Shown piece by piece: positions 2,079 to 18,554 of a stretch of 21,642 bases of DNA. The translations under genes were made by a program, and so were the position numbers. Positions within the stretch are counted from its first letter, which is position 1. The number at the start of each line of letters is the position of its first letter. This stretch comes from a virus: positions 1 through 21,642 of the IMG/VR virus record IMGVR_UViG_3300042691_051980, one strand, 5' to 3'. The notes beneath the pieces are model-generated. The model had not been told where the DNA came from. It did not search any database and was given only the letters and a program-made list of their open reading frames with translations.

Positions 2079-4427
2079 ATGTCTCTAGGAGCAATTGATA
2101 AGCAAAGGAGTTTATTCCTCAAGGGTTTTAAATTATCAAAGCAAGGAAATTACGAGGATCCCACATATCTGGGATTTAAGGTCATTGTTGATTTTGGTTC
2201 CCTCCCAATAAATGGTGAGGATGGTTTACCGCCAAGCCCATTATTTAAAAGGGATCCGTATTTTGTGGGCGAAGAAAATAGTTTCTTTGGTAAAAATCCA
2301 TTTGGGCAACCACAGTATGATTTCAGAACGAAACCAAACGGGAATATAGCTTATCATAGTGCTCAGTCTTACCTGAGAGAAAGGGAATCAGAATTTCTCT
2401 ATGGTGGAAAAAGATCCGATATGCTTCAGCAATTTTCTATTCTATTCAGTGATTTACTCACAAATTCCCCTTGGTTTTTACAATCGATAAAGGGTCTCGA
2501 TGAGCTGATGAAATTAGATAGGCCAGGATTTCCTAGTCAATCATCAGAAACTACATTTAATCCGCAGAGAACCTCTGGAAAAACTCTTGAATTCTCATGT
2601 TTGGAATCATTGAATTTAAGAATGACCGCATTAGCGGATCTTTATAATCAAGCAACATTTGATTATGATAATATGCGTGAACTCCTGCCAAGGAATCTAA
2701 GAAGATTTACAATGTACATATTTGTTTCGGAGGTTAGAAACTTTTTTAAGACATCCAGACTAATGGGATCTTCTGCAGCTTTGACCACATTGGATAATTT
2801 AAGTACATTGTTGGGATCCGGAAATAATCCTGGTACCAGTCTCGGGGTTTCCGATGTTTCTAGTGAACAGAATAGAAATTTTTCATCTGGACCTTCTGAT
2901 ATCAATCCAGCTAGTTCATTTAATTCTTTTGTTGGAAATATATTCAACCAATCAGGACTTGATAACGATTTTTCACTTCTGAAGAATCAGCAAGATCAAT
3001 CCGGTATAAAGCCTATGCTTGTTTTCGAATGCAAGAATTGTGAGTTTGATTTTGGAGGTTCGACACCGATTCCCACTGATCTTTCAACGGGTAGTTCAAC
3101 CGCACAATCCGAAACCCAATCTTTCAAAATCCATGTGGGTAGGGTAAGAATGAGAAATCAATATCCAAATATTAGATTAGATGGAAAACCTTTGGTTCTT
3201 GGTGATAGTTGGGATTCGGCTAGATCATCAGTTCAGAAAAATCCGGTTAATCAAAACGATATACTTGGAATAGGTGCTGAACTTCTAACTAATTTCGTAA
3301 GTAATTCACTTAACGATCTTATAAATGAGGGGGTTGCAAATTTAACAAAAAATATTGCTGGATTGGATAAAGCCCTTTTAGGAAATATCTATAGCTTTAA
3401 TCCGAGTCAAATACTTAGCAATCTTTCTTTTAATTCTGCTCAGAACCTATTGGATCAATTAGGAAATGCAAATATCGGTTTCAGAAACACCACACTCCCA
3501 AATCCACAGACTATGGGACAGGGAGGACCACCACAAAGGGTGTATCCTAATCCAGGCGGTGACGAATACCCAACATCACCAGGACCGGATCTCGGAGTTC
3601 CTGATAGAGTTTATCCAGCTCCTGGTGGGGATGTTTATCCAACAAATCCAGGACCGGATCTAGGGGTTCCTGGTAGAGTTTATCCAGCTCCAGGAGGTGA
3701 TGAATACCCAACATCTCCAGGACCAGATTTGGGGGTTCCTCAAAGAGTTTATCCAGCTCCAGTAGGGGATGAATACCCAACATCACCAGGTCCAGATTTA
3801 GGTGTTCCTCAAAGGGTTTATCCAGCGCCAGGTGGTGATGAATATCCAACATCGCCAGGACCAGATTTGGGTGTTCCGCAGAGAGTTTATCCACCAACTA
3901 CTGGTGATGAATATCCAACATCACCAGGTTCAGATTTGGGAGTTCCTGATAGAGTTTATCCTCCAACTACTGGTGATGAATATCTAACATCACCAGGTCC
4001 AGATTTGGGTGTTCCACAGAGGATTTATCCATCACCAGGTGGCGACGAATACCCAACATCACCAGGACCGGATCTAGGGGTTCCTGATAGAGTTTATCCA
4101 ACAACTAATGAGGATTTCTATCCAACAAATCCCGGTATAGATCTTGGGGTTCCTCAAAGAGTTTATCCACAAATCAATGAGGATGTTTATCCAACTTCTC
4201 CTGGAACTTTGGGTGAAAATAATTCATTCCAGTCCCCTCCCATAAGGGTTTATCCTGAAGTACCCGCGAGTTCGTCTCGCCCGAGAGGAACCCTTGGGAA
4301 AGAGTATCCAGTAACTAATGGAGACTTTACCCCCGGTCCTCCCATGGATTTAGGAAACTTAAAACCTCCTACTAAATATAATATAAGTACGGATGGATAC
4401 AACCCGGAATCAAAAGATTATGAATAA
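2079..4427 (+). CDS. Baseplate/tube-initiator-like structural protein with Pro/Gly-rich 23-residue repeats
   Basis: This 782-residue protein has three parts. Residues 1-380 are globular: SLFLKGFKLSKQG and YLGFKVIVDFG near the start, a helix-rich stretch (FSDLLTNSPWFLQSIKGLDEL), a segment SLNLRMTALADLYNQATFD followed by LLPRNLRRFTMYIFVSEVR, and a beta segment MLVFECKNCEFDFGG followed by FKIHVGRVRMRNQYP. This alternation resembles tail-tube-like folds such as tube initiators gp48/gp54, but I cannot confirm the family. Residues 386-485 are an Asn/Ser/Leu-rich connector. Residues 486 to about 712 are ten 23-residue repeats with the core RVYP...GDEYPTSPG...DLGVP, and the last 70 residues are Pro-rich and degenerate. 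It lies between hub and spike genes, so a role at the hub or tube base is likely. The start ATG has a purely A/T-rich leader. The repeat part could be an extended surface-exposed or flexible arm; no function is known to me. Confidence 0.55.
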   Translation: MSLGAIDKQRSLFLKGFKLSKQGNYEDPTYLGFKVIVDFGSLPINGEDGLPPSPLFKRDPYFVGEENSFFGKNPFGQPQYDFRTKPNGNIAYHSAQSYLRERESEFLYGGKRSDMLQQFSILFSDLLTNSPWFLQSIKGLDELMKLDRPGFPSQSSETTFNPQRTSGKTLEFSCLESLNLRMTALADLYNQATFDYDNMRELLPRNLRRFTMYIFVSEVRNFFKTSRLMGSSAALTTLDNLSTLLGSGNNPGTSLGVSDVSSEQNRNFSSGPSDINPASSFNSFVGNIFNQSGLDNDFSLLKNQQDQSGIKPMLVFECKNCEFDFGGSTPIPTDLSTGSSTAQSETQSFKIHVGRVRMRNQYPNIRLDGKPLVLGDSWDSARSSVQKNPVNQNDILGIGAELLTNFVSNSLNDLINEGVANLTKNIAGLDKALLGNIYSFNPSQILSNLSFNSAQNLLDQLGNANIGFRNTTLPNPQTMGQGGPPQRVYPNPGGDEYPTSPGPDLGVPDRVYPAPGGDVYPTNPGPDLGVPGRVYPAPGGDEYPTSPGPDLGVPQRVYPAPVGDEYPTSPGPDLGVPQRVYPAPGGDEYPTSPGPDLGVPQRVYPPTTGDEYPTSPGSDLGVPDRVYPPTTGDEYLTSPGPDLGVPQRIYPSPGGDEYPTSPGPDLGVPDRVYPTTNEDFYPTNPGIDLGVPQRVYPQINEDVYPTSPGTLGENNSFQSPPIRVYPEVPASSSRPRGTLGKEYPVTNGDFTPGPPMDLGNLKPPTKYNISTDGYNPESKDYE
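3534..4214 (+). repeat. 69-bp tandem repeat, ten in-frame units
   Basis: Units begin at 3534, 3603, 3672, 3741, 3810, 3879, 3948, 4017, 4086 and 4155 with no insertion or deletion between them; the tenth is incomplete. Each encodes 23 residues starting Q/D/G-R-V-Y-P and ending DLGVP, with GDEYPTSPG in the middle. Most differences between the central units are synonymous or confined to the four residues after RVYP. Two degenerate relics follow (RVYPEVPAS near 4245 and KEYPVTNGD near 4300). Exact length conservation shows selection for the protein period or recent unit-wise recombination. Confidence 0.95.
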
Positions 4428-4429
4428 AC

Positions 4430-5107
4430 ATGCCAAGTGAAAAAACATACCTAGGAAAAATAGTAGATATAAACGATCCACTTAAACTCGGTAGAGCGAA
4501 AGTGAATGTTTTTGGAATATTTGATGATCTTCCGGTAGAGGATATTCCGTGGGCTGAACAAAATCCTGGAATTTCTTTTGGTAAAGGTTTTGGAGGTGGA
4601 AATATAACAATCCCGAGGAATGGTGCAGTTGTTTATGTTAGGTTTGAGGAGGAAAATTATTACAAAATAACTTACGATTACCTTAAGGAAACCTCACCAG
4701 ATTTAATAGAGGAAATAAGTCAAGAGAACTCATATGAGGGAACTCAATGTTTAGTTTATGATGGCGATGCTCTACCAGGAACACTTAAAGTTATATACAC
4801 AAGGAGGAACGGAATGGTTATTTCCTTGGGTGATGCAAAAGTTCAACTTGATACACAAAATGGAGGTGAACTCAGAGTCGTTGTAAAGATGGGAGAGGAT
4901 GAAATAAGGATGGAGCAGAGCAAGGTTATAGTAAAATGTAACAACATAGAACTCGGGGAGGGTGCAGTGGAAAAACTTGTTAAAGGTAGCACATTTTTAA
5001 CTTATTTCAATTCTCATACACATCCAACTGGGGTTGGTCCTTCAGGAACTCCGATAATACCAATGACAGATCCCCAGCATTTGAGTCAGGTATCTAAAAC
5101 TAAATAA
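4430..5107 (+). CDS. Baseplate central spike protein, gp5/gpV-like, without lysozyme domain
   Basis: Forms the membrane-piercing tip under the hub. Residues 1-85 are an OB-fold domain with the signature start YLGKIVDINDPLKLGRAKV, as in the T4 gp5 N-terminal domain and gpV/VgrG proteins. Residues 120-178 are short alternating strands (MVISLGDAKVQL, RVVVKMGEDEIRM, KVIVKCNNIELG) expected of a trimeric beta-helix. The C-terminal segment carries NSHTHPTGVGPSGTP; the His-x-His pair at 196 and 198 resembles the metal-binding apex of phage spikes such as P2 gpV. At 225 residues it is far shorter than T4 gp5 (575) and has no lysozyme domain between OB fold and needle, so peptidoglycan cutting must come from elsewhere. 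The start lies two bases after the upstream stop, suggesting coupled translation. Confidence 0.88.
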   Translation: MPSEKTYLGKIVDINDPLKLGRAKVNVFGIFDDLPVEDIPWAEQNPGISFGKGFGGGNITIPRNGAVVYVRFEEENYYKITYDYLKETSPDLIEEISQENSYEGTQCLVYDGDALPGTLKVIYTRRNGMVISLGDAKVQLDTQNGGELRVVVKMGEDEIRMEQSKVIVKCNNIELGEGAVEKLVKGSTFLTYFNSHTHPTGVGPSGTPIIPMTDPQHLSQVSKTK

Positions 5108-7003: not shown

Positions 7004-8164
7004 ATGAATTTCGATTCTATTGAAAATTTCGATTGGGATCAGCCCAATGGATTAAAAATAAACAAAAAAATTAAATCCCCAAAGGGATGTAAGGTTTATT
7101 GTCATGATGATTATTCCCAGGAATTAATGGATTTGTTAATGCTGGACGGTGCTGATTTTTCCGGTGGTTCCAAGGATCTTTCTGAGGGTGATGTCTACAC
7201 ATGTAAGATTATAAGTGTAAAGGCTGATGAAGCTTTAGCACAAACCTCATCAGGTCAAACAATTTATATTGATCTTAAAAGGGAAAGAAGAGATGCGGAT
7301 AAACTAAATATTGAATCACTTAGTTTTATTCCTGGTGAGGAGATAAAAGCAAGGGTTAGAAAGATTAATGGAAGTTATCTTGGATCAGTTATAGAGTATT
7401 TCATACAAAGCTTAAGAATAGAATTATTTGAGCAAATCAAAAAGGAAAGCAGTGCTTATTTAGTTAAAGTTTTGAGTGTTAATAAAGGAGGATACATTGT
7501 TGATCTTTCGGGAATTAAATGTTTCATGCCTGGTTCTTTAGCTGCAGCAAATAAGATTACTGATTTTGAATCTTATGTTGGCAAAAGCATGCACGTCATG
7601 GTTGAGGGATATGTTGAGGCAAAAGATATATTTATAGTTTCTTATAAGAAATATATAAACAGAATAATGGAAACTAAAATACAGGAGCTTGATCTGACTA
7701 AAAAATATAGGGGATATATTACTGGAACTAGTGACTTTGGCGTATTTGTTGAATGGGATGAAATTTACACTGGGTTAATTCATAAAACTGAATTTTCTGG
7801 AGATAATATGCTGACATCATTGCAACCTGGGTTGGAAATAGAATTCTATGTAAAGGAAATAAAAGACAACAATAGATTAACTCTAACTCTAGATCAGCCT
7901 CTTGAGAGAAATATTATTATACAGGATCTTGAAAATTCAATAAAAGACGGAACTGTTGATTCTTATGAGGCAAAGGTAAAACATAAAAGAAAAAATGGAG
8001 CCCTTGTTGAAATACAGGGACTAGGATTGCTTGCTCTTATCCCACAGGATAAACTTGGCAAGATTGGAAATAACATAAAAATCGGTGACGATGTAAATGT
8101 TATTCCTTATGAGGTTGATACAATCTCGGGAAAAATATTTGTTAGAATAATAGATGTCGGATAA
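7004..8164 (+). CDS. Phage-encoded S1-domain (ribosomal protein S1-like) RNA-binding protein
   Basis: Predicted single-stranded-RNA-binding protein built from about four S1-type OB-fold domains: roughly residues 61-130 (EGDVYTCKIISVKADEAL), 148-215 (AYLVKVLSVNKGGYIVDL followed by CFMPGSLA), 232-297 and 318-384. The third is the most canonical: KKYRGYITGTSDFGVFVEW followed by YTGLIHKTEF, the G-x-V...FG-x-FV...GL-x-H pattern of S1. The second resembles the ribosome-proximal S1 domain with its FMPGSL phrase. Bacterial S1 usually has six domains and about 550 residues; this 386-residue form is shorter and has an acidic N-terminal extension of about 60 residues. S1-like proteins have been reported in huge phages and are thought to favour translation of phage mRNA. 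Here the leader is A-rich with no Shine-Dalgarno. The stop overlaps the next gene by 11 bases. A transcription or mRNA-stability role is an alternative. Confidence 0.85.
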   Translation: MNFDSIENFDWDQPNGLKINKKIKSPKGCKVYCHDDYSQELMDLLMLDGADFSGGSKDLSEGDVYTCKIISVKADEALAQTSSGQTIYIDLKRERRDADKLNIESLSFIPGEEIKARVRKINGSYLGSVIEYFIQSLRIELFEQIKKESSAYLVKVLSVNKGGYIVDLSGIKCFMPGSLAAANKITDFESYVGKSMHVMVEGYVEAKDIFIVSYKKYINRIMETKIQELDLTKKYRGYITGTSDFGVFVEWDEIYTGLIHKTEFSGDNMLTSLQPGLEIEFYVKEIKDNNRLTLTLDQPLERNIIIQDLENSIKDGTVDSYEAKVKHKRKNGALVEIQGLGLLALIPQDKLGKIGNNIKIGDDVNVIPYEVDTISGKIFVRIIDVG

Positions 8165-9560
8165 CAGAACACACTTTGATAAGTTAAATGCACTTAGCTC
8201 CTCAGTAATAGGATTTGAATTTGAATTTTTTACCGATCTAATGAAAGGTAAGGCTGCTAGTGCCATATCTAAGCTTATCAACAAAAAAGTTATAGTTTCC
8301 GATAAATACCACTCAAAAATACCAGTAGACTCAAACAATTTTAAATTGGAGCCAGATTACTCAGGCGGAAATAAAATGGTTGAGCTTATAACGGGACCTC
8401 TTCCTTACATGGAGGCAATTCCTATCCTCATTAAGATCCTAAAGTGGATTGATGAAAATGGATGGACTAACGATAGATGTGCTTTTCAATTCTCTGTTAG
8501 TTTTGACAAAATGAGAAAGGACGTCAGAACAAGAATAGAGGATTTGGATCAACTTAAATTTATATTGGGCCTCGATGAAGGCCTAATATATTCTAAGTTT
8601 GGAAACAGAGAAAAGAACGTTTACGCCAAATCTGTCAAGAAGGTAATACCAAGAAATAGATTTTCAATTTTGGAAAATATCACTTCGATAGATCCAAAAA
8701 TGTACAAGATTCCTAATGACAAATATTATGGGGTCAACTTCACAAAAATTCCAAAAGGGTATATAGAATTCAGATATCTTGGAAACAGAGACTATCAGAA
8801 AAAAATAAAGGAAATAAGGGAAATAATCGATTACATCATTCTCTATCTCTATGATATTCTTAGTGGAAGAATGGGTGGATATTCCCAACAGGATTTAAAA
8901 ACCCTCCAAAATTTACTTTCAAAATACACAAAAATAGTTAGATCTTTCAACGATCCAAATTTTTTCTACAGAAATTATCCGGACTTTCACATATTTGTTG
9001 ATCTCAAGGGATGGGACGAGAATATTAAAACTTATTTTCCAATGATAAGGGATAAGATTTTCGATCTTATAGTGGAGGGAAATATCACTTCATGTTACTT
9101 TAATTATGACACAACAAATGGAAGATATCAAATCAAGGAGGCTAGAAGTAGAAATGGTTTTGAGATAGATGGGGTTGATATGGTTCTTTGTGATATTAAA
9201 AATGCAACAATAAGAAATTGTAATCTTTATAATTGTGAGATAAGAAAATCCTCAATTGAGGACTCTTATTTGTATGGTGGATCCAAGGTGATATCTTCCA
9301 AGGTTAAATCAACCGTTATTGATTTTGGTAATGAGCTCAATGATTGTTTTATAGATTGTGAGAATAAGAATGTTAATGGTAAAATAATAGGAGGTGTTTT
9401 TAGAGCTGGAAATCTTGGGGAAAATTCAGAATTAAGCAAGGAAACAATAAAAATCAAAGCTCCAGAGGATATAAGAAAAGTTAGATTTGTTACTGACGGT
9501 AGATTAAAGGATATCAATGATAAATTCCCAAATCAAAGATTTGGTAACATGAACTATTAA
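8154..9560 (+). CDS. Putative amidoligase fused to a C-terminal pentapeptide-like beta-helix
   Basis: Residues 1 to about 240 match the glutamine-synthetase-fold amidoligase family (Amidoligase_2): GFEFEF at 20-25 supplies the paired acidic residues of the first strand, EPDYSGGNKMVELITGPL at 66-83 is the typical second block, GWTNDRCAFQFSVSF at 103-117 corresponds to the T-x-x-C-x-x-H/Q strand, and YIEFRYLGN at 203-211 gives the E-x-R strand. Such enzymes are predicted to form amide bonds with ATP and divalent metal; substrates are mostly unknown. Residues about 346-417 show five-residue periodicity (CDIKNATIRNCNLYNCEIRK, then SSIEDSYLYGG), indicating a right-handed quadrilateral beta-helix. 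The last 50 residues are charged. The usual His of the third block is Gln/Ser here, so activity is not certain. The gene overlaps the S1 gene by 11 bases, implying translational coupling. An N-terminal start further downstream is unlikely because GFEFEF follows closely. Confidence 0.75.
   Translation: MSDNRTHFDKLNALSSSVIGFEFEFFTDLMKGKAASAISKLINKKVIVSDKYHSKIPVDSNNFKLEPDYSGGNKMVELITGPLPYMEAIPILIKILKWIDENGWTNDRCAFQFSVSFDKMRKDVRTRIEDLDQLKFILGLDEGLIYSKFGNREKNVYAKSVKKVIPRNRFSILENITSIDPKMYKIPNDKYYGVNFTKIPKGYIEFRYLGNRDYQKKIKEIREIIDYIILYLYDILSGRMGGYSQQDLKTLQNLLSKYTKIVRSFNDPNFFYRNYPDFHIFVDLKGWDENIKTYFPMIRDKIFDLIVEGNITSCYFNYDTTNGRYQIKEARSRNGFEIDGVDMVLCDIKNATIRNCNLYNCEIRKSSIEDSYLYGGSKVISSKVKSTVIDFGNELNDCFIDCENKNVNGKIIGGVFRAGNLGENSELSKETIKIKAPEDIRKVRFVTDGRLKDINDKFPNQRFGNMNY
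8561..8590. other. Strong hairpin inside the amidoligase gene
   Basis: TATATTGGGCCT pairs with AGGCCTAATATA over 12 positions (one G-T wobble at 8567/8584) around the six-base loop CGATGA. No run of T follows, so it is not a rho-independent terminator. It lies in the codons around GLDEGLIYS. Confidence 0.8.
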
Positions 9561-9574
9561 AAAAAAGCCATACC

Positions 9575-10351
9575 ATGACACTTGATGAATTAGTACAGGA
9601 AATAGAAGATGCATTAAGCTTTAGCTGTGCCCTCCCATATAATCTTAATAGAGCGGAGATAGAAAGAATAATCAAGAGAGCAAAGGCTTGGTTTTATGAT
9701 AACTATCAATATGCAGCGGAGGACAGAGTATTTGTTATAGCTAATAGTATTTTTAATCACCAGGAGTTTAAAAGAACTAGACAGCTCAGACTTCCACCAT
9801 CCATAGTTAGTGTTTATGAGGTTAGAGAACTTGGTGGTTATGGAATATCAGGAAATCCGGATAGGGATTTCAGTGATTCAAAACTTCTTGGATCTGAACT
9901 TCTTCTTTCTCCATTTTTAGGGGATAACCTCGTTTATAGAACTGTTATGTATTCTTATTTTGATTTAGCTAAGGCATATCTATTAAACACATTTGCTTTT
10001 AAATTCAATAAAAATACAAAGCAATTAACAATACTTGGAAGGGATCCAAATAGATCCGGAAAAGGCCAGTTAGCACAGGGATTTGGTGTGGGTGGTGTTG
10101 ATGTTAGTGTTAGATGCTATGTTGCTATTCCTGATGAGGATTTATTTAATGACGAGTTATTTGTCAGATATTGTATAGCAAAATGTAAAATAGCTCTTTC
10201 TCAAATGCTTGGGGTCTTTACCTATAATTTGCCTGGTGGTGTTCAAATAAATGCTAATGAAATTGGAACACAAGGATCGACTGAACTTCAGGAGGTAATG
10301 GATATGATAAATGGGGAGAATACTCCATCTTATTTCCTTCAGTGGAATTGA
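9575..10351 (+). CDS. Putative virion structural protein, connector/neck-like
   Basis: This 258-residue protein opens with a helical segment (MTLDELVQEIEDALSFSC, EIERIIKRAKAWFYDNYQYA), continues with a beta-rich core (RQLRLPPSIVSVYEVREL), and ends with FVRYCIAKCKIALSQMLGVF, then a Leu-Pro-Gly-Gly-Val phrase and an acidic helix (TELQEVMDMING). The combination of an N-terminal helix pair, a central sheet and a late F-x-x-Y-x-x-A-x-x-K-x-x-L helix followed by LPGG is, to my recollection, shared by several tailed-phage structural proteins near neck and connector genes, but I could not confirm a family. It starts 14 bases after the amidoligase and is the last gene before the terminator at 10399. 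It is more like a virion protein than an enzyme; a chaperone or baseplate accessory protein is possible. Confidence 0.5.
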   Translation: MTLDELVQEIEDALSFSCALPYNLNRAEIERIIKRAKAWFYDNYQYAAEDRVFVIANSIFNHQEFKRTRQLRLPPSIVSVYEVRELGGYGISGNPDRDFSDSKLLGSELLLSPFLGDNLVYRTVMYSYFDLAKAYLLNTFAFKFNKNTKQLTILGRDPNRSGKGQLAQGFGVGGVDVSVRCYVAIPDEDLFNDELFVRYCIAKCKIALSQMLGVFTYNLPGGVQINANEIGTQGSTELQEVMDMINGENTPSYFLQWN

Positions 10352-10501: not shown

Positions 10502-10873
10502 ATGAGAGAGATTTACAATAGAGATCCCGACGATCCAAGTTATAACCCATATCAGCTAGAAACAACAGATCCTGTTGAAATATGCATAGGACAGTTGAAA
10601 ATGCTTCTTTTGACAAATAAGGGAGAAGTTATGGGGGATCCTCAATTTGGGTTGAATTTGGAGGATCTTATTTTTAGTCTTAATATTTCAGAATATAGTC
10701 TTAAAAAAGAACTTGATTTAAATTTAAAAACATACGTTCCCTTATTTAGTAGATTAGGAGGTTCATATGATCTGAAATTTTTTCAGGGAACTCTGAGGGA
10801 TATTGCCACACTCGACTTTAGAATATCTGAATCTGGTGGGGATAGTCCCGTTGTTTCTTTAAAAATAACATAA
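10502..10873 (+). CDS. Baseplate wedge protein, gp25-like
   Basis: Small wedge subunit that in T4 and related injection systems nucleates sheath assembly on the baseplate. The 123 residues match the GPW_gp25 family in length (T4 gp25 is 132) and pattern: EICIGQLKMLLLTNKGEVM followed by GDPQFGLNLEDLIF (residues 26-58) is the family core, in which the small-residue/Pro/aromatic turn precedes the G-x-x-L-x-x-L helix. The usual Glu-Pro-Arg is here Gly-Asp-Pro-Gln. The C-terminal strands (YDLKFFQGTLRDIATLDFRI) fit the terminal sheet. It is the first gene after the terminator/promoter gap and lies seven bases before the gp6/J-like gene, the standard order gp25 then gp6. The leader contains no Shine-Dalgarno. 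Confidence 0.87.
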   Translation: MREIYNRDPDDPSYNPYQLETTDPVEICIGQLKMLLLTNKGEVMGDPQFGLNLEDLIFSLNISEYSLKKELDLNLKTYVPLFSRLGGSYDLKFFQGTLRDIATLDFRISESGGDSPVVSLKIT

Positions 10874-10880
10874 ATTATAG

Positions 10881-12605
10881 ATGAATATTTATAAAAAGAA
10901 TAATATATTAATCAATGGTTTATTGAGTGACACATTCAATTTCCTACAAACGACATATAATCAGGCATCATCTGTATTTACTGTTGCTTCTGCATGGGGT
11001 CAGATCTTATTTGTTCTGCAGAATCTCTCCCAGCTAATATTATATTTCATAGAAGACTCCATCACGGAATTAAACATACAGGAGGCAACAAGGGATTATT
11101 CTGTTAGAAGCTTAGCAAGAATATCTGGATATGATTCAGGAAGAGCCACAGCAGCTCAGGGTGAGATTTCAATAAACTGGAACACGAGGGAAGGCGACGT
11201 TGGTGGAGGTGCAGTTATAATTAGAAATAACACACAAATAAGATGTGTACAGACTGGAAAAATATATTCTCTTAGATTTGGTAGCGACGAGATAACAATT
11301 CCGCTAGTGAGAGGAAATGTTGTTAGATCTAAGATTGTTCAGGGAAATTTTGAAACTGGAACAGTAACGGGAGCGGGTATAGCATTACAGAGTTTTAATC
11401 TTCCGTCAACATCAGGAGCTTATATAGATCAATTCTATATAGATGTTTATGTTAATAATGAGAAATGGAAAAGATATGATTCACTTTATGATATCCCATT
11501 AAACGGAAAGGGCTATCTTGTTAGAAGTGGTATATCTGAGGGTATCGATATTTATTTTGGAAATTCAAATTTTGGAATGATTCCTCAAAGAGGATCCGTA
11601 ATAAAGATTGAATATTTACAAACATCAGGATTAAGCGGGAATTCGGAATCAACAAATGAAAATCCTCTTACATATAAATTTGTTTCAACTGGAACCGATC
11701 TATTTGGGACTGAGGCTGATTTAAACCTTTATCTTGACATAGGTAATCTTATAGATCCAACATTTGGAACAAATCCAGATCCCATATCCCTTATAAGATT
11801 GGTTGCTCCTAAAACCAGCAGATCATATGTTTTCGCAAACACCGAAAACTACGAGATATTCCTTCAGAAATTAGGTATTTTCTCACAAATACATGCTTTC
11901 ACAACATTTGATGACGATTTTCTGGATGATGATAATGTTATTTATATCTATTTAGTTCCAGATGTCACAATAAATCTTTCAACTAATGAGGATTATTTTA
12001 GTATTCCCGTTTCGGAATTTTTACTTACATCTCAGCAAAAAACCAAGGTCCTAAATTTAATTGAGGATTCTGGACAAATGATAGCTACAACGGTTGTTAA
12101 GATAGTTGAGCCAGTTATATCAAGATATGTTGCTAATATAGTTATTTCCGTTTTTGAAGGTAACGATCCGGAGACAATAAGACAAAATATAAGAAGAAGG
12201 ATTTCTGAATATATGCTTAATAATAAGAGAAGGGATAAGATCCCAAAATCTGATATTATAGCAATAGTGGAAGGTGTCGAAGGTGTAGATTCGGTTTCTA
12301 TGTTTTTCGTAGGACAAAAAAATGAGGAAAATCAAATAACATTAAGCGGACTAACAAATGTTTCACAGGCTCAACTCGATGAACAAATAGGTCTTGACAC
12401 ATTTGGCGATATACTTATAGGAAGAAATCAGCTTGTAATTTTGAGGGGGGGATGGACCGATAGAAATGGTATAACATACACGGAGGGAATAGTTCAGGGT
12501 CAACCTGGACCTTTAAATATAAGTGTTTCCTCATTTGTTCCTAGAAATTTTAGAAGTTCTTTGAATAATGAACTTAAAGCACAAATAATAAGTCAAAGCA
12601 AATAA
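10881..12605 (+). CDS. Baseplate wedge protein, gp6/gpJ-like
   Basis: Main wedge subunit forming the inner baseplate ring. Residues 57-98 carry the diagnostic IEDSITELNIQEATRDYSVR followed by SLARISGYDSGRATAAQGEI, the pattern of T4 gp6 and Baseplate_J proteins (helix, aromatic, A/G-x-x-x-GY, R-A-x-A-A-x-G). The middle is beta-rich with a long insertion (SGISEGIDIYFGNSNFGMIP; NPDPISLIRLVAPKTSRSY at about 300-315). From about residue 429, PETIRQNIRRRISEYM followed by KIPKSDIIAIVEGVEGVDSV is the C-terminal J-like domain with a substrate-contact-like helix and I-x-x-x-E-G-V-x-G-V. At 574 residues it is close to T4 gp6 (660) and longer than P2 gpJ (302), so the gp6 type is favoured. It ends one base before the next gene, suggesting a tight operon. 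Confidence 0.85.
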   Translation: MNIYKKNNILINGLLSDTFNFLQTTYNQASSVFTVASAWGQILFVLQNLSQLILYFIEDSITELNIQEATRDYSVRSLARISGYDSGRATAAQGEISINWNTREGDVGGGAVIIRNNTQIRCVQTGKIYSLRFGSDEITIPLVRGNVVRSKIVQGNFETGTVTGAGIALQSFNLPSTSGAYIDQFYIDVYVNNEKWKRYDSLYDIPLNGKGYLVRSGISEGIDIYFGNSNFGMIPQRGSVIKIEYLQTSGLSGNSESTNENPLTYKFVSTGTDLFGTEADLNLYLDIGNLIDPTFGTNPDPISLIRLVAPKTSRSYVFANTENYEIFLQKLGIFSQIHAFTTFDDDFLDDDNVIYIYLVPDVTINLSTNEDYFSIPVSEFLLTSQQKTKVLNLIEDSGQMIATTVVKIVEPVISRYVANIVISVFEGNDPETIRQNIRRRISEYMLNNKRRDKIPKSDIIAIVEGVEGVDSVSMFFVGQKNEENQITLSGLTNVSQAQLDEQIGLDTFGDILIGRNQLVILRGGWTDRNGITYTEGIVQGQPGPLNISVSSFVPRNFRSSLNNELKAQIISQSK

Positions 12606-16100: not shown

Positions 16101-17915
16101 ACCTTACAGAAGGAAATACCTAGCGAAATTTTAGATTTTGCAATTTATGGTAATAAATCTGAGGAGGGACAAAGTGTTTTTGTCAAAACAACACTCAATC
16201 CAATTGCAGCTTCTGGAGAGATTGTAATAACCCAAGATTTTATTGATATAGTTCAACTATATTCCCCCGAATTAGTCCCGGGTCAATATGGATATGTAAT
16301 CATAGAAACAACAACTCCCCATAATCTTGAAGCTGGCGACAATGTAACAATTGTGGGAAGTATACCTGAGATGAATGGTAGATTTAATGTTTTAAGTGTT
16401 TTATCTTCAACTGAATTTAAAATACCAATTGCACTTCAATCTCTCTGGAGCGGAGTTTTAATAGGAACGTCACCAAATAGACTGTATGTGGATACTTCGG
16501 TTTATTTGAACCAGAGAATAACCGGTGCGGGTGGCATAGATATTTATGTAGGAGGAAGACTTATAGGTACAGCCGAAGCAGGAGACAGCCTTTACAACAC
16601 GGCAAATCAAATAACCGGATCCATAAATTCATTAAGAACATATCCGGACTATTTTGCTTCATGTGTAGATCCGGAAAATGATCCTGCTATTATAACTATT
16701 TTTGCTCCATCCGAACTTGGAGCTGAACAAAATGGTGTTACTCTTTCAGTGGAAACTACCGGAATATTAACTATCCAATCCATAGATTCACAATTGAGCG
16801 GTGGTGTGTCTCCAACGGAGACATATGAATTTTGGTCAGAAAACAATCCGGATTACCCGAACGACAATCTTAAATTTTGGGGAACAAAAAATATAGATTG
16901 GCAGATATTTAATGATAACACATGGGAAGATGGCTATGCCCACACTTGGTTTGATTTTGAATACAATAACGATTGGCTCGGTGGGTTTGAATTGCACAGC
17001 ATTGGAAGTGGTGATAACGTGAAGATATCAACAGCAAATGAATCCTTCCCATTCCCAGTAGGTGTGACTTTCGGATCCTCCGATGTACTAACCCTACAGA
17101 ACGTTGCAGATGCCCTTAATAATTCATCAGATCCAAATATAACAAATTTCTATTATAGGGTTATCCCAACAGATAGTGGTTCTTTATCCCCAATTAATGG
17201 TCCAATTAATCTTGAGTTTCTTGACAATCCTTTAACGACAAGCTCATTTCCACCTCCGCCTTCACTGATAGGGGGAAGTCCTTTATTAACGGTTAATTTT
17301 GGATACACTGGAGGAACTCCTATAACGACAACAACCAGTACTACAACAACCAGTACTACAACAACTAGTACTACAACAACTAGTACTACAACAACTAGTA
17401 CTACAACAACTAGTACATCATCCACGACTACCACCACAACTATACCAGTTTTATGTGGTTTACCAAGTGGTACAGCTGTTTATGTTCCTCCACCAACTAC
17501 AACTACAACCACAACAACTACAACAAGTACAACCACGACTACAACAACAGCGCCTCCAACTAATTCACAAATATCGAATAATTGGACATCTAATATTTCT
17601 GGAATTTTTAATGTCGAGGTTCAAATAGGGTCAGGATCATGGGTTACTGTTTATACTTCATCCTTCCAGACAATTACACCAGGAAGCAATTTGAATTTCT
17701 TCCAGGGTTATTACCCTGGATCTAACCCACAGACTGGGAATTCTTTCAGAATTACAATATCTTCAGCTTCTGGTATATCAGTATTCCGTAAGATTCAAAT
17801 GTTCCAGGGAAGCACAAGTACCCAAGGATTCTTTTCAAATATTAGTTCCGGCACATGGAGAGCAACAACATTCTCCTCAGGCACACAATACAATTTAATT
17901 ATAAGTATTACATAA
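13140..17915 (+). CDS. Giant mosaic wedge/fibre protein, gp7/gpI-like N-terminal half, 1591 residues
   Basis: Very large baseplate protein. Residues 280-400 contain YERRLIVEDV and, at 365-392, FPYIGSYKGLINALKFFGYQ followed by DLRIKEYW, resembling the P2 gpI/tail protein I phrase (small residues, then a helix leading to a Gly-aromatic turn), as expected for the gene after gp6. Further domains: about 603-712 a cupredoxin-like sheet lacking copper ligands; about 814-850 an SH3/Tudor-like segment (GDRVFVKILEIFGTVVAVNY); about 880-930 an Ig-like strand pair (YTGKYRVTCNTYDGF); about 1056-1100 a recurring phage module (HNLEAGDNVTIVG, MNGRFNVLSVLSSTEF). From residue 1396 two Thr/Ser tracts flank a short linker with one Cys and the last 105 residues are a Ser/Gly/Thr-rich beta domain. 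It probably combines the gp7 wedge arm with fibre attachment. The gp7 assignment is inference from order and a weak motif. Confidence 0.6.
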   Translation: MANINLNFYNKSGNPLNFNYIGPTGPTPLDLKFVYFRSANTNNNGDLLITESTNDYTFTFNIEDVSKNNLTSWNTECADFIDKGAFVYLNGNVAGGGGFKALIESSTIVGGDLVLVLPKSGYSGQSIISLESRIFFNASYENRPGGYFKGNIYFDPVSIDLYENEQIFIVQKFYDGTDYVYGLPHTEFFSATGPGKWRTRWYNDNYGNIDISDIIFTYKIEESLAGGDGQPLIVNYPNIAIPVDLDPADTYYTGGVIQTTNITSSALGLNVALNSTEGYDEVYERRLIVEDVTTETPSTVLIIDFYGEIVGEDERFKVLLENLGRAFYNSDSIILRDHDPKEPLPNFEEINEKRKELLITGEEIFPYIGSYKGLINALKFFGYQDLRIKEYWLNLNFRSLKLESALQQNQNFLNAIKAQQKQGYSQSYVIGDVLDNPNSGKYRMTQTYGPDKDGNYVLDVSSEETLIPSRSYKKTSLFGLYYDLNKVTDEVDEYGYPIVVDAFKFTQEEVLIKIFGLKERLKRDYLPLNARIIDITGEGVYFAVYNTRSWTDFMGRCDVELGFEYDFYPNPDFGFIEDLRNFTTRPSQIAPQVPSSYFDIYSTTVTVQGGTGSALFFSGGLPYGSTGSNPTITLKAGSTYYFNMIDSSGYNYDLTFTTDPLLTKVDPVGIINNGATGDRTITWYINPQQTTPVYYYSSVNKTLLNGVVNIISDTISDLGNSVDPLINAQQYTSGQNEQFIQSIENFYNLKQNGEIIELGDGIYDPPAYIDPITGQLYEVPIGMPVILEMFPDRWEWDELNINWDGLLIPVFSMGDRVFVKILEIFGTVVAVNYSGGTYDVLLDGFAVVVTYGENDLFSSKQNFSILNWKNIDFSNIFEIEWIIDKITTESGSPYHFEFRGSIVDFYKLAHFIPYTGKYRVTCNTYDGFNYKTSVIKNGIIVVEPKTVDIDSWTRFREVEYYLYDNVTRSWDDYDSIWEYPAEGKDLVTLQKEIPSEILDFAIYGNKSEEGQSVFVKTTLNPIAASGEIVITQDFIDIVQLYSPELVPGQYGYVIIETTTPHNLEAGDNVTIVGSIPEMNGRFNVLSVLSSTEFKIPIALQSLWSGVLIGTSPNRLYVDTSVYLNQRITGAGGIDIYVGGRLIGTAEAGDSLYNTANQITGSINSLRTYPDYFASCVDPENDPAIITIFAPSELGAEQNGVTLSVETTGILTIQSIDSQLSGGVSPTETYEFWSENNPDYPNDNLKFWGTKNIDWQIFNDNTWEDGYAHTWFDFEYNNDWLGGFELHSIGSGDNVKISTANESFPFPVGVTFGSSDVLTLQNVADALNNSSDPNITNFYYRVIPTDSGSLSPINGPINLEFLDNPLTTSSFPPPPSLIGGSPLLTVNFGYTGGTPITTTTSTTTTSTTTTSTTTTSTTTTSTTTTSTSSTTTTTTIPVLCGLPSGTAVYVPPPTTTTTTTTTTSTTTTTTTAPPTNSQISNNWTSNISGIFNVEVQIGSGSWVTVYTSSFQTITPGSNLNFFQGYYPGSNPQTGNSFRITISSASGISVFRKIQMFQGSTSTQGFFSNISSGTWRATTFSSGTQYNLIISIT
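14946..15275 (+). other. Cupredoxin-like domain within the giant wedge protein, copper ligands absent
   Basis: Residues 603-712 show TVTVQGGTGSALFFSGG, then TITLKAGSTYYFNMIDSSGY, NYDLTF, a G-x-x-x-x-G-x-x-G-D loop and finally PVYYYSSVNKTLLNGVVNI. In cupredoxin-like phage and bacterial domains the comparable positions read gHPLxF and YYYC-x-x-H-x-x-M. Here His is Tyr, Cys is Ser, His is Asn or Lys and Met is Leu, so the sheet seems kept but the copper site lost. Confidence 0.55.
17325..17441 (+). repeat. 15-bp minisatellite encoding TTTTS units
   Basis: Six units of a 15-base repeat (consensus ACTACAACAACTAGT, with ACC or ACG at few positions) encode Thr4-Ser repeats, followed by Thr-Ser-Ser-Thr6. 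The near-identical codons in the last four units suggest recent slippage. Such Thr/Ser runs are flexible, extended and typical O-glycosylation substrates. Confidence 0.95.
17496..17549 (+). repeat. Second poly-Thr tract in the giant protein
   Basis: Ten Thr, one Ser and seven Thr codons, in mixed ACA/ACT/ACC/ACG order, so the tract is maintained at protein level rather than as a DNA repeat. It joins the VPPP segment to APPTN and the C-terminal beta domain. Confidence 0.9.
17701..17720. other. GC-rich hairpin in the giant wedge gene
   Basis: TCCAGGGT pairs perfectly with ACCCTGGA around the loop TATT. It lies in the codons for FFQGYYPGS near the 3' end of the gene and is not followed by a T tract. 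Confidence 0.75.
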
Positions 17916-17954: not shown

Positions 17955-18554
17955 ATGACGGTAACTATAACAATAACATCACCTGGAGCAGATACTGGAC
18001 CATTTGATTTATACCACAATTTAAACGGATTTTCTACAGCATTTGAAACATCGGTTCCCAAATCATCTTTAACTTCCGGATATCTTTCAAATCTTGTTCC
18101 TGATGGAGCCACTATCATTAGGGTTCAATCAACAGGAACATGTACAAATTATATAGATCTGGCAATATCAGGAGTACCAGCCACAACGACAACGACAACG
18201 ACAACAACCACAACTGCAGCTCCAGTCATTATACCGGTTGAATGGAACCTCTCGAATGCCACAGGTTCAACCGTGACTTCCAGAGAACTTAAATTTTATA
18301 AAAATGGTTCACTAATACAATTAATAACCTCAGATGGAACCGGAACAATAAATTATGCGTTAAATGACACCATAAGGGTAACAATCGAAATCAATCTCTC
18401 ACCTTTGGGAAATCAGAATTTATCAATCTATGACCAGTCTTTTAATACTGTTTTTGTAGACAGCTCCGGATCGAATTCTCTATTGGATAGTGGGAATATA
18501 CTTTTAGATTCATTAAGTGGAATAACTGATCTTTATGTTTATGGAGATTACTAA
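17955..18554 (+). CDS. Two-domain adhesin-like protein with a poly-Thr linker
   Basis: The 199-residue protein has two small beta domains. The first (about 1-74) reads MTVTITITSPGADTGPFDLY, with VPDGATIIRVQSTGTCTN near its end; its edge-strand periodicity and G-x-C-T-N turn suggest a tail-fibre module. Eleven Thr residues (77-87) and AAP form a linker, after which a second domain (EWNLSNATGSTVTSRELKFY, then LSIYDQSFNTVFVDSSGS) resembles the C-terminal part of the giant wedge protein in general character. There is no signal peptide or membrane segment. It lies 39 bases after the giant gene and its last 20 bases overlap the glycosyltransferase gene. A receptor-binding or decoration protein is the best guess; the fold has not been confirmed. 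Confidence 0.6.
   Translation: MTVTITITSPGADTGPFDLYHNLNGFSTAFETSVPKSSLTSGYLSNLVPDGATIIRVQSTGTCTNYIDLAISGVPATTTTTTTTTTTAAPVIIPVEWNLSNATGSTVTSRELKFYKNGSLIQLITSDGTGTINYALNDTIRVTIEINLSPLGNQNLSIYDQSFNTVFVDSSGSNSLLDSGNILLDSLSGITDLYVYGDY
18183..18215 (+). repeat. Poly-Thr tract in the adhesin-like gene
   Basis: Eleven consecutive Thr codons, starting as an ACA-ACG alternation (6-base repeat) and ending with ACA, ACC and ACT. It is followed by Ala-Ala-Pro, like the Ala-Pro-Pro after the second tract of the preceding gene. Confidence 0.9.

Follow-up and report, generated by a model that had tools for sequence, protein, structure and literature searches.

Enzymes of the Amidoligase_2 (PF12224) family, or COOH-NH2 ligases, have a glutamine synthetase (GS) fold that carries the motifs GxExE, DxS...E, Y-x3-N, and ExR in that order, and they are predicted to form amide bonds in an ATP-dependent manner. 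In the phiEco32-type gene set, the amidoligase gene lies beside genes for an amidotransferase and an ATP-grasp enzyme, and Vibrio phage IME271 is a precedent for finding these three genes together. Two later papers credit to Iyer et al. 2009 the proposal that the phiEco32 amidoligase modifies the cell envelope (PMC10580990, PMC11318856). The pentapeptide-repeat proteins, among them Rfr23, NP275/276, MfpA, EfsQnr, AlbG, and HetL, form a square helix with a five-residue repeat, an aliphatic central residue, and a small residue at position i-2.

We analyzed a 21,642-base virus record (the window) in which one open reading frame (ORF) encodes a protein resembling both groups. The protein shares with the Amidoligase_2 family the fold, the ordered motifs, and presumably the chemistry, but it has a C-terminal beta-helix, reads Q-x-S in place of H-x-H, and has no adjacent GATase gene. 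Its helix has the features of the pentapeptide-repeat proteins but is shorter, neutral, and fused to a GS-fold enzyme. An earlier note on this DNA had called the fusion an undescribed architecture, and we likewise found no description of an amidoligase-pentapeptide fusion in the literature searched. What is new is the domain architecture; both domains belong to known families. The ORF contains the three motifs quoted in that note (GFEFEF at residues 20-25, MVELITGPL at 75-83, and YIEFRYLGN at 203-211), and the fusion of the two domains proved real and conserved among relatives. Judging by its predicted proteins, the window carries a cluster of baseplate genes from a T4-like phage (Table 1).

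Table 1. Features of the fusion gene and its neighbors in the window
Feature	Positions	Strand	Basis or remark
Whole gene, predicted GS-fold amidoligase plus pentapeptide beta-helix, 468 aa	8154..9560	+	ORF translation
Predicted GS-fold amidoligase domain, residues ~17-240	8202..8873	+	AlphaFold2 model, fold matches, hhalign
G20-x-E22-x-E24 motif, predicted metal ligands	8211..8228	+	Invariant in 80/80 covering sequences
D68-x-S70...E77 motif, predicted metal ligand strand	8355..8384	+	Invariant in 82/82
Q112, aligned with the first His of H-x-H in amidoligases	8487..8489	+	Alignment
K190-Y191-x3-N195...E205-x-R207, predicted ATP/metal/substrate site	8721..8774	+	Five positions invariant in 82/82
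Helical linker and start of C-terminal region, residues ~241-329	8874..9140	+	Model secondary structure
Predicted pentapeptide-type square beta-helix and C-terminal beta-hairpin cap, residues ~331-421	9144..9416	+	Model, periodicity, Pfam
Tail, mostly low confidence, probably disordered, residues 422-468	9417..9557	+	AlphaFold2 model
S1-domain protein of 386 aa with three Pfam S1 stretches, directly upstream of amidoligase	7004..8164	+	
Downstream neighbor, PHROG head-tail adaptor Ad2 match	9575..10351	+	Synteny conserved
gp25-like and gp6/J-like baseplate wedge genes, downstream of amidoligase	10502..12605	+	
gp5/base_V-like baseplate hub OB protein, upstream, same gene cluster	4430..5107	+	

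The full fusion protein was modeled by AlphaFold2 with 39 sequences (pLDDT 85.5, pTM 0.81); residues 437-468 of the tail had a pLDDT below 50. The top matches among solved structures were glutamine synthetases (4bax, Z 11.8, rmsd 3.4, 183 residues aligned at ~10% identity; VIA), followed in rank by viral models named amidoligase (E 3e-13 to 1e-4; BFVD). Unlike glutamine synthetase, the window protein has the extra beta-helix, and no GS beta-grasp N-domain was found in it. Over its full length, the fold matched that of A0A6J5PQ40, an uncharacterized protein of an uncultured Caudovirales phage (TM 0.83/0.88 over 447 columns), which is 27% identical and has no functional name. Profile comparison by hhalign with amidoligases annotated in other phages (Porphyromonas, Christensenellales, and Syntrophomonadaceae phage proteins and the Vibrio phage IME271 homolog) gave 97.2% probability and E 3.5e-11 over residues 14-230. 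The window protein alone scored below the threshold of PF12224 (E 0.0019; 18.6 bits against a cutoff of 22). The same profile matched 14 of 19 diverse relatives, with a best E value of 6e-6, and its curated cutoff was exceeded in whole-record searches by four close relatives (in G001, G002, G003, and G005) and by Agrobacterium phage Atu_ph07. The AlphaFold2 model, the solved glutamine synthetases, and hhalign thus bear out the GS-fold amidoligase call of the earlier note at the level of predicted fold. A match to the NCBIfam model for DNA polymerase III epsilon (18 bits against a cutoff of 245) was judged to be due to chance.

Residue conservation was assessed in an alignment of 82 sequences, comprising 81 distinct relatives and the query. 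E22, E24, D68, S70, E77, K190, Y191, N195, E205, and R207 were invariant where covered. The first motif, G20-x-E22-x-E24, aligns with F-G-x-E-x-E of annotated amidoligases, the second corresponds to their D-x-S...E, and the third equals their R-Y-x3-N...E-x-R with one R-to-K change. By comparison with glutamine synthetase, these conserved positions would be the metal and ATP ligands. The fold is shared with glutamine synthetase and gamma-glutamylcysteine ligase over ~180 residues, and an active site of the E-x-E and E-x-R type presumably maps onto theirs. The H-x-H motif reads Q112-x-S114 in the window protein, and we therefore class the protein, by its sequence, as a divergent relative of Amidoligase_2 rather than a canonical member. 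Position 112 is Q in 70 of the 82 sequences and H in 12 more distant members, with both states tracking sequence groups. The replacement may have altered activity in the window's clade. Glutamine can still serve as a metal ligand, so Q112 is no proof of inactivity.

In the C-terminal half, at least 94% of the 82 aligned sequences carry a hydrophobic residue at each of columns 338, 343, 348, 353, 358, 363, 368, and 373, and most sequences have Ala, Ser, Cys, Thr, or Gly two residues before each of these columns. After a one-residue register shift, the periodicity resumes at 379 and 384 and, less strictly, at 389. Chance periodicity was ruled out by shuffling the segment: 1 in 100,000 shuffles equaled its run of six perfect pentads (p ~1e-5). 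Pfam Pentapeptide_4 matched 8 of 19 relatives, and a profile search of solved sequences matched MfpA, McbG-like/AlbG, QnrB1, and NleL. Residues 310-424 folded alone with a pLDDT of 95.8 and a pTM of 0.87; strands were predicted every five residues, and the Z score against pentapeptide proteins was 8-8.8. Helices of the pectate-lyase type came nearly as close (Z up to 7.9), and the sequence repeat is therefore the deciding evidence for the pentapeptide type. A conserved GGVxRxG at 413-419 lies within the terminal beta-hairpin. An artefact of Asn-rich low complexity was rejected, as there are 5 Asn in 57 residues and the periodic columns are conserved across sequences only ~30% identical. Together, the repeat, the lone fold, and the Pfam matches agree with the pentapeptide-like beta-helix that the earlier note had placed at residues 346-417. 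The periodicity holds there, although the predicted square helix extends slightly more widely, over about residues 331-421. It comprises ~90 residues in four to five coils.

A first viral scan found 56 loci with relatives, and a profile scan of IMG/VR found at least 554 sequence stretches that encode them. Six huge-phage records of 462-735 kb (LR756500-504 and LR745206) encode the fusion at 31-35% identity; two of these, LR756501 and LR756503, have identical lengths and match positions. Given this divergence, we regard the fusion as old in huge phages. Both halves are under purifying selection: where dS was unsaturated, dN/dS was ~0.04-0.06 for the GS domain and 0.10-0.17 for the helix. A bacterial chromosomal origin was rejected, with just two MAG contigs matched in 84,980 species. 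The Atu_ph07 protein AUZ94978 has a GS-fold domain homologous to that of the window protein (25% identity across residues 1-210; PF12224 E 5.5e-8) and is located in a structural gene cluster. By our count it would be gp196, since the portal AUZ94980 as gp198 and the prohead core AUZ94986 as gp204 agree with the published numbering. It differs in consisting of the enzyme half only, with no pentapeptide beta-helix in the alignment, and in retaining the H of H-x-H. In one distant member (L101:2873-5908), the amidoligase gene is preceded by genes for an AAA ATPase and a DUF2201 metallopeptidase/VWA-like protein. In Salicola phage SCTP-2, the adjacent large proteins gp125 and gp124 (L110:4966-8726) are weakly amidoligase-like (E 0.9 and 0.1).

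The fusion gene is found across large and huge phages, and yet its products are named "hypothetical" or, in distant members, "amidoligase." An active enzyme would be widespread among phages and would make unusual amide bonds in late infection, which mass spectrometry could detect. It would also define an architecture open to testing, in which a GS-fold ligase has its own beta-helix arm for docking.

The end of the S1 gene overlaps the start of the fusion ORF by 11 nt. In the fetched loci, an S1 gene adjoins the fusion, overlapping or nearly so, in 87 of 107 fusion genes, the commonest overlaps being 8 or 11 nt (67 cases); among the other 20 are many on cut contigs or in distant members. Al-Shayeb et al. 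noted that huge phages encode proteins with S1 domains, for which they proposed a function in initiating translation (PMC7162821), and a published remark that Shine-Dalgarno motifs are rare in huge phages with such proteins agrees with the window. Here, 13 of 15 genes (starts across 512-21377) have no Shine-Dalgarno-like motif, which makes re-initiation of the fusion from S1 translation plausible and also means that the absence of the motif at the fusion gene is not specific. Of the translational coupling to the S1 gene that had been proposed for this locus, the overlap is conserved; coupling itself we infer. The adjacency is near-universal within the window's clade but breaks down in four relatives of 634-735 kb (LR745206 and LR756501, 502, and 504), which keep the fusion and have an S1-like gene at a distance of tens to hundreds of kb. 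Two other ORFs come between the genes in LR756500. These distant phages rule out S1 as an obligatory operon partner.

Candidate partner enzymes are encoded elsewhere in the genomes of the window's clade. Each of the 23 window-clade records that extend far enough has an AsnB-like gene ~17 kb upstream of the one for the amidoligase; two further contigs, which end ~5 kb upstream of the fusion, fall outside this count. Its product has an N-terminal MCGI and GATase_6 and Asn_synthase domains, and one copy of this glutamine-dependent synthetase gene, at L117:7195-8601 (G001:306194-307600), sits in the head/tail gene region. The gene was absent by GATase_6 from LR756500-502, 504, LR745206, and Atu_ph07 and by Asn_synthase from the L103, L105, and L108 contigs. 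A RimK-like ATP-grasp ligase, located at L126:5822-7297 (G001:396321-397796), is encoded in 11 of 11 window-clade genomes tested and, among the other records tested, only in LR756501; its C-terminal tail has a weak RimB/ATP-dependent Zn-protease-like match (E 0.003). Because the amidotransferase and ATP-grasp genes are not adjacent to the amidoligase gene (~17 kb and ~74 kb away), belong to one clade, and are mostly missing from distant fusion-bearing phages, the fusion does not require them as partners. One and the same sequence group is marked by the AsnB-like gene and by the change from His to Gln. Each may reflect one ancestral event, and their co-occurrence hints at a shared pathway.

Two other enzyme types were rejected as partners. 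An R2K ATP-grasp protein occurs sporadically: an R2K_2 clade protein (a CDC123 relative; L126:10990-11727) is present in G001 and G002 and not in the other five window-clade genomes tested, and further copies occur in several distant huge phages. A gamma-glutamyl cyclotransferase is missing from window-clade genomes and encoded far from the fusion in three distant ones.

We favor, with moderate confidence, the reading that the fusion protein is a carboxylate-amine ligase that makes amide or peptide bonds, depends on ATP and metal, and uses its helix to dock an acceptor, most likely a protein or peptide. Catalytic activity of the Amidoligase_2-type domain is suggested by the near-complete conserved set of amidoligase residues. 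The helix would be a rigid docking scaffold, a role proposed by analogy with other pentapeptide proteins. The effectors NleL and SopA also join a pentapeptide beta-helix to a protein-modifying ligase (E3), and the helix matches NleL with Z 7.6; their catalytic fold and chemistry are unrelated and the domain order is reversed, making this an analogy only. Baseplate cluster synteny and the position of the Atu_ph07 homolog among head genes point to synthesis late in infection alongside structural genes. In the window's clade, the enzyme would act with the AsnB-like amidotransferase and the RimK-like ligase, amidating or tagging a phage or host protein. A more specific version, in which the helix of a huge-phage tagging ligase recognizes one phage or ribosome-associated protein to which an amino acid is attached or an isopeptide cross-link made, with the clade-specific Gln in place of a metal-ligand His and both partners taking part, is tentative and on the whole rather unlikely.

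The main rival to this docked ligase is a modifier of the cell envelope that would decorate surface sugars or the stem peptides of peptidoglycan with amino acids or amides, aiding lysis or excluding superinfecting phages as proposed for the phiEco32-type amidoligase. Such a role would fit the presence of all three enzyme types in window-clade genomes, the recurrence of the set in IME271, and the published phiEco32 proposal, which is itself a prediction. Against it, inspection of the fusion protein by eye revealed neither a signal peptide nor a membrane segment, no cell-wall gene adjoins the amidoligase gene, and most distant fusion-bearing phages are missing the partner genes; we consider it possible but doubtful. 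The other alternatives are less likely. Loss or change of catalysis, leaving a structural or regulatory pseudo-enzyme that serves as a morphogenesis factor or baseplate virion part, would suit a gene within a conserved baseplate cluster, the Gln at the H-x-H position, and an Atu_ph07 homolog in a virion-protein-rich cluster (PMC6102473). However, the other predicted catalytic positions are invariant down to ~25-30% identity, which is unusual for a dead enzyme, and in several 634-735 kb phages the gene lies outside the baseplate cluster, so this explanation seems unlikely. An anti-phage defense role was dropped because PADLOC gave no match for the amidoligase or the S1 protein.

The earlier note had also suggested the S1 protein as substrate, and tagging of the phage S1-like protein would be analogous to the addition of glutamates to ribosomal protein S6 by RimK. 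The frequent gene overlap speaks for it, as does the finding of an S1-like gene in nine of nine fusion-bearing records tested and its absence from Atu_ph07 and SCTP-2. This co-occurrence may instead reflect shared ancestry, and the C-terminus of S1 varies and lacks a conserved tail that could act as acceptor. Since S1 is unlinked in the four 634-735 kb phages, adjacency is weak evidence for S1 as the substrate, and we find S1-directed modification improbable. Least credible is DNA mimicry, also raised earlier, by which the helix would imitate DNA for gyrase or another DNA-binding protein and so recruit the enzyme. MfpA, McbG-like/AlbG, and QnrB1 are among the profile matches and the fold search adds EfsQnr, but cyanobacterial and synthetic pentapeptide helices score equally or better. 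Whereas the gyrase-inhibiting mimics Qnr, MfpA, and AlbG have a long, strongly acidic helix surface, the window helix is short and carries no net charge (12 K+R versus 12 D+E), and we give this explanation almost no weight.

Tandem repeats occur elsewhere in the window. A 782-aa ORF beside the baseplate hub gene contains a 69-nt unit in ~8-9 copies (positions 3552-4195), which encodes the Pro-rich repeat RVYPAPGGDEYPTSPGPDLGVP. A 1591-aa ORF has, close to its end, Thr/Ser-rich short tandem repeats (ACAACAACTAGTACT units) at 17328-17442 and 17494-17549, and the next ORF (17955-18554) has a similar Thr run.
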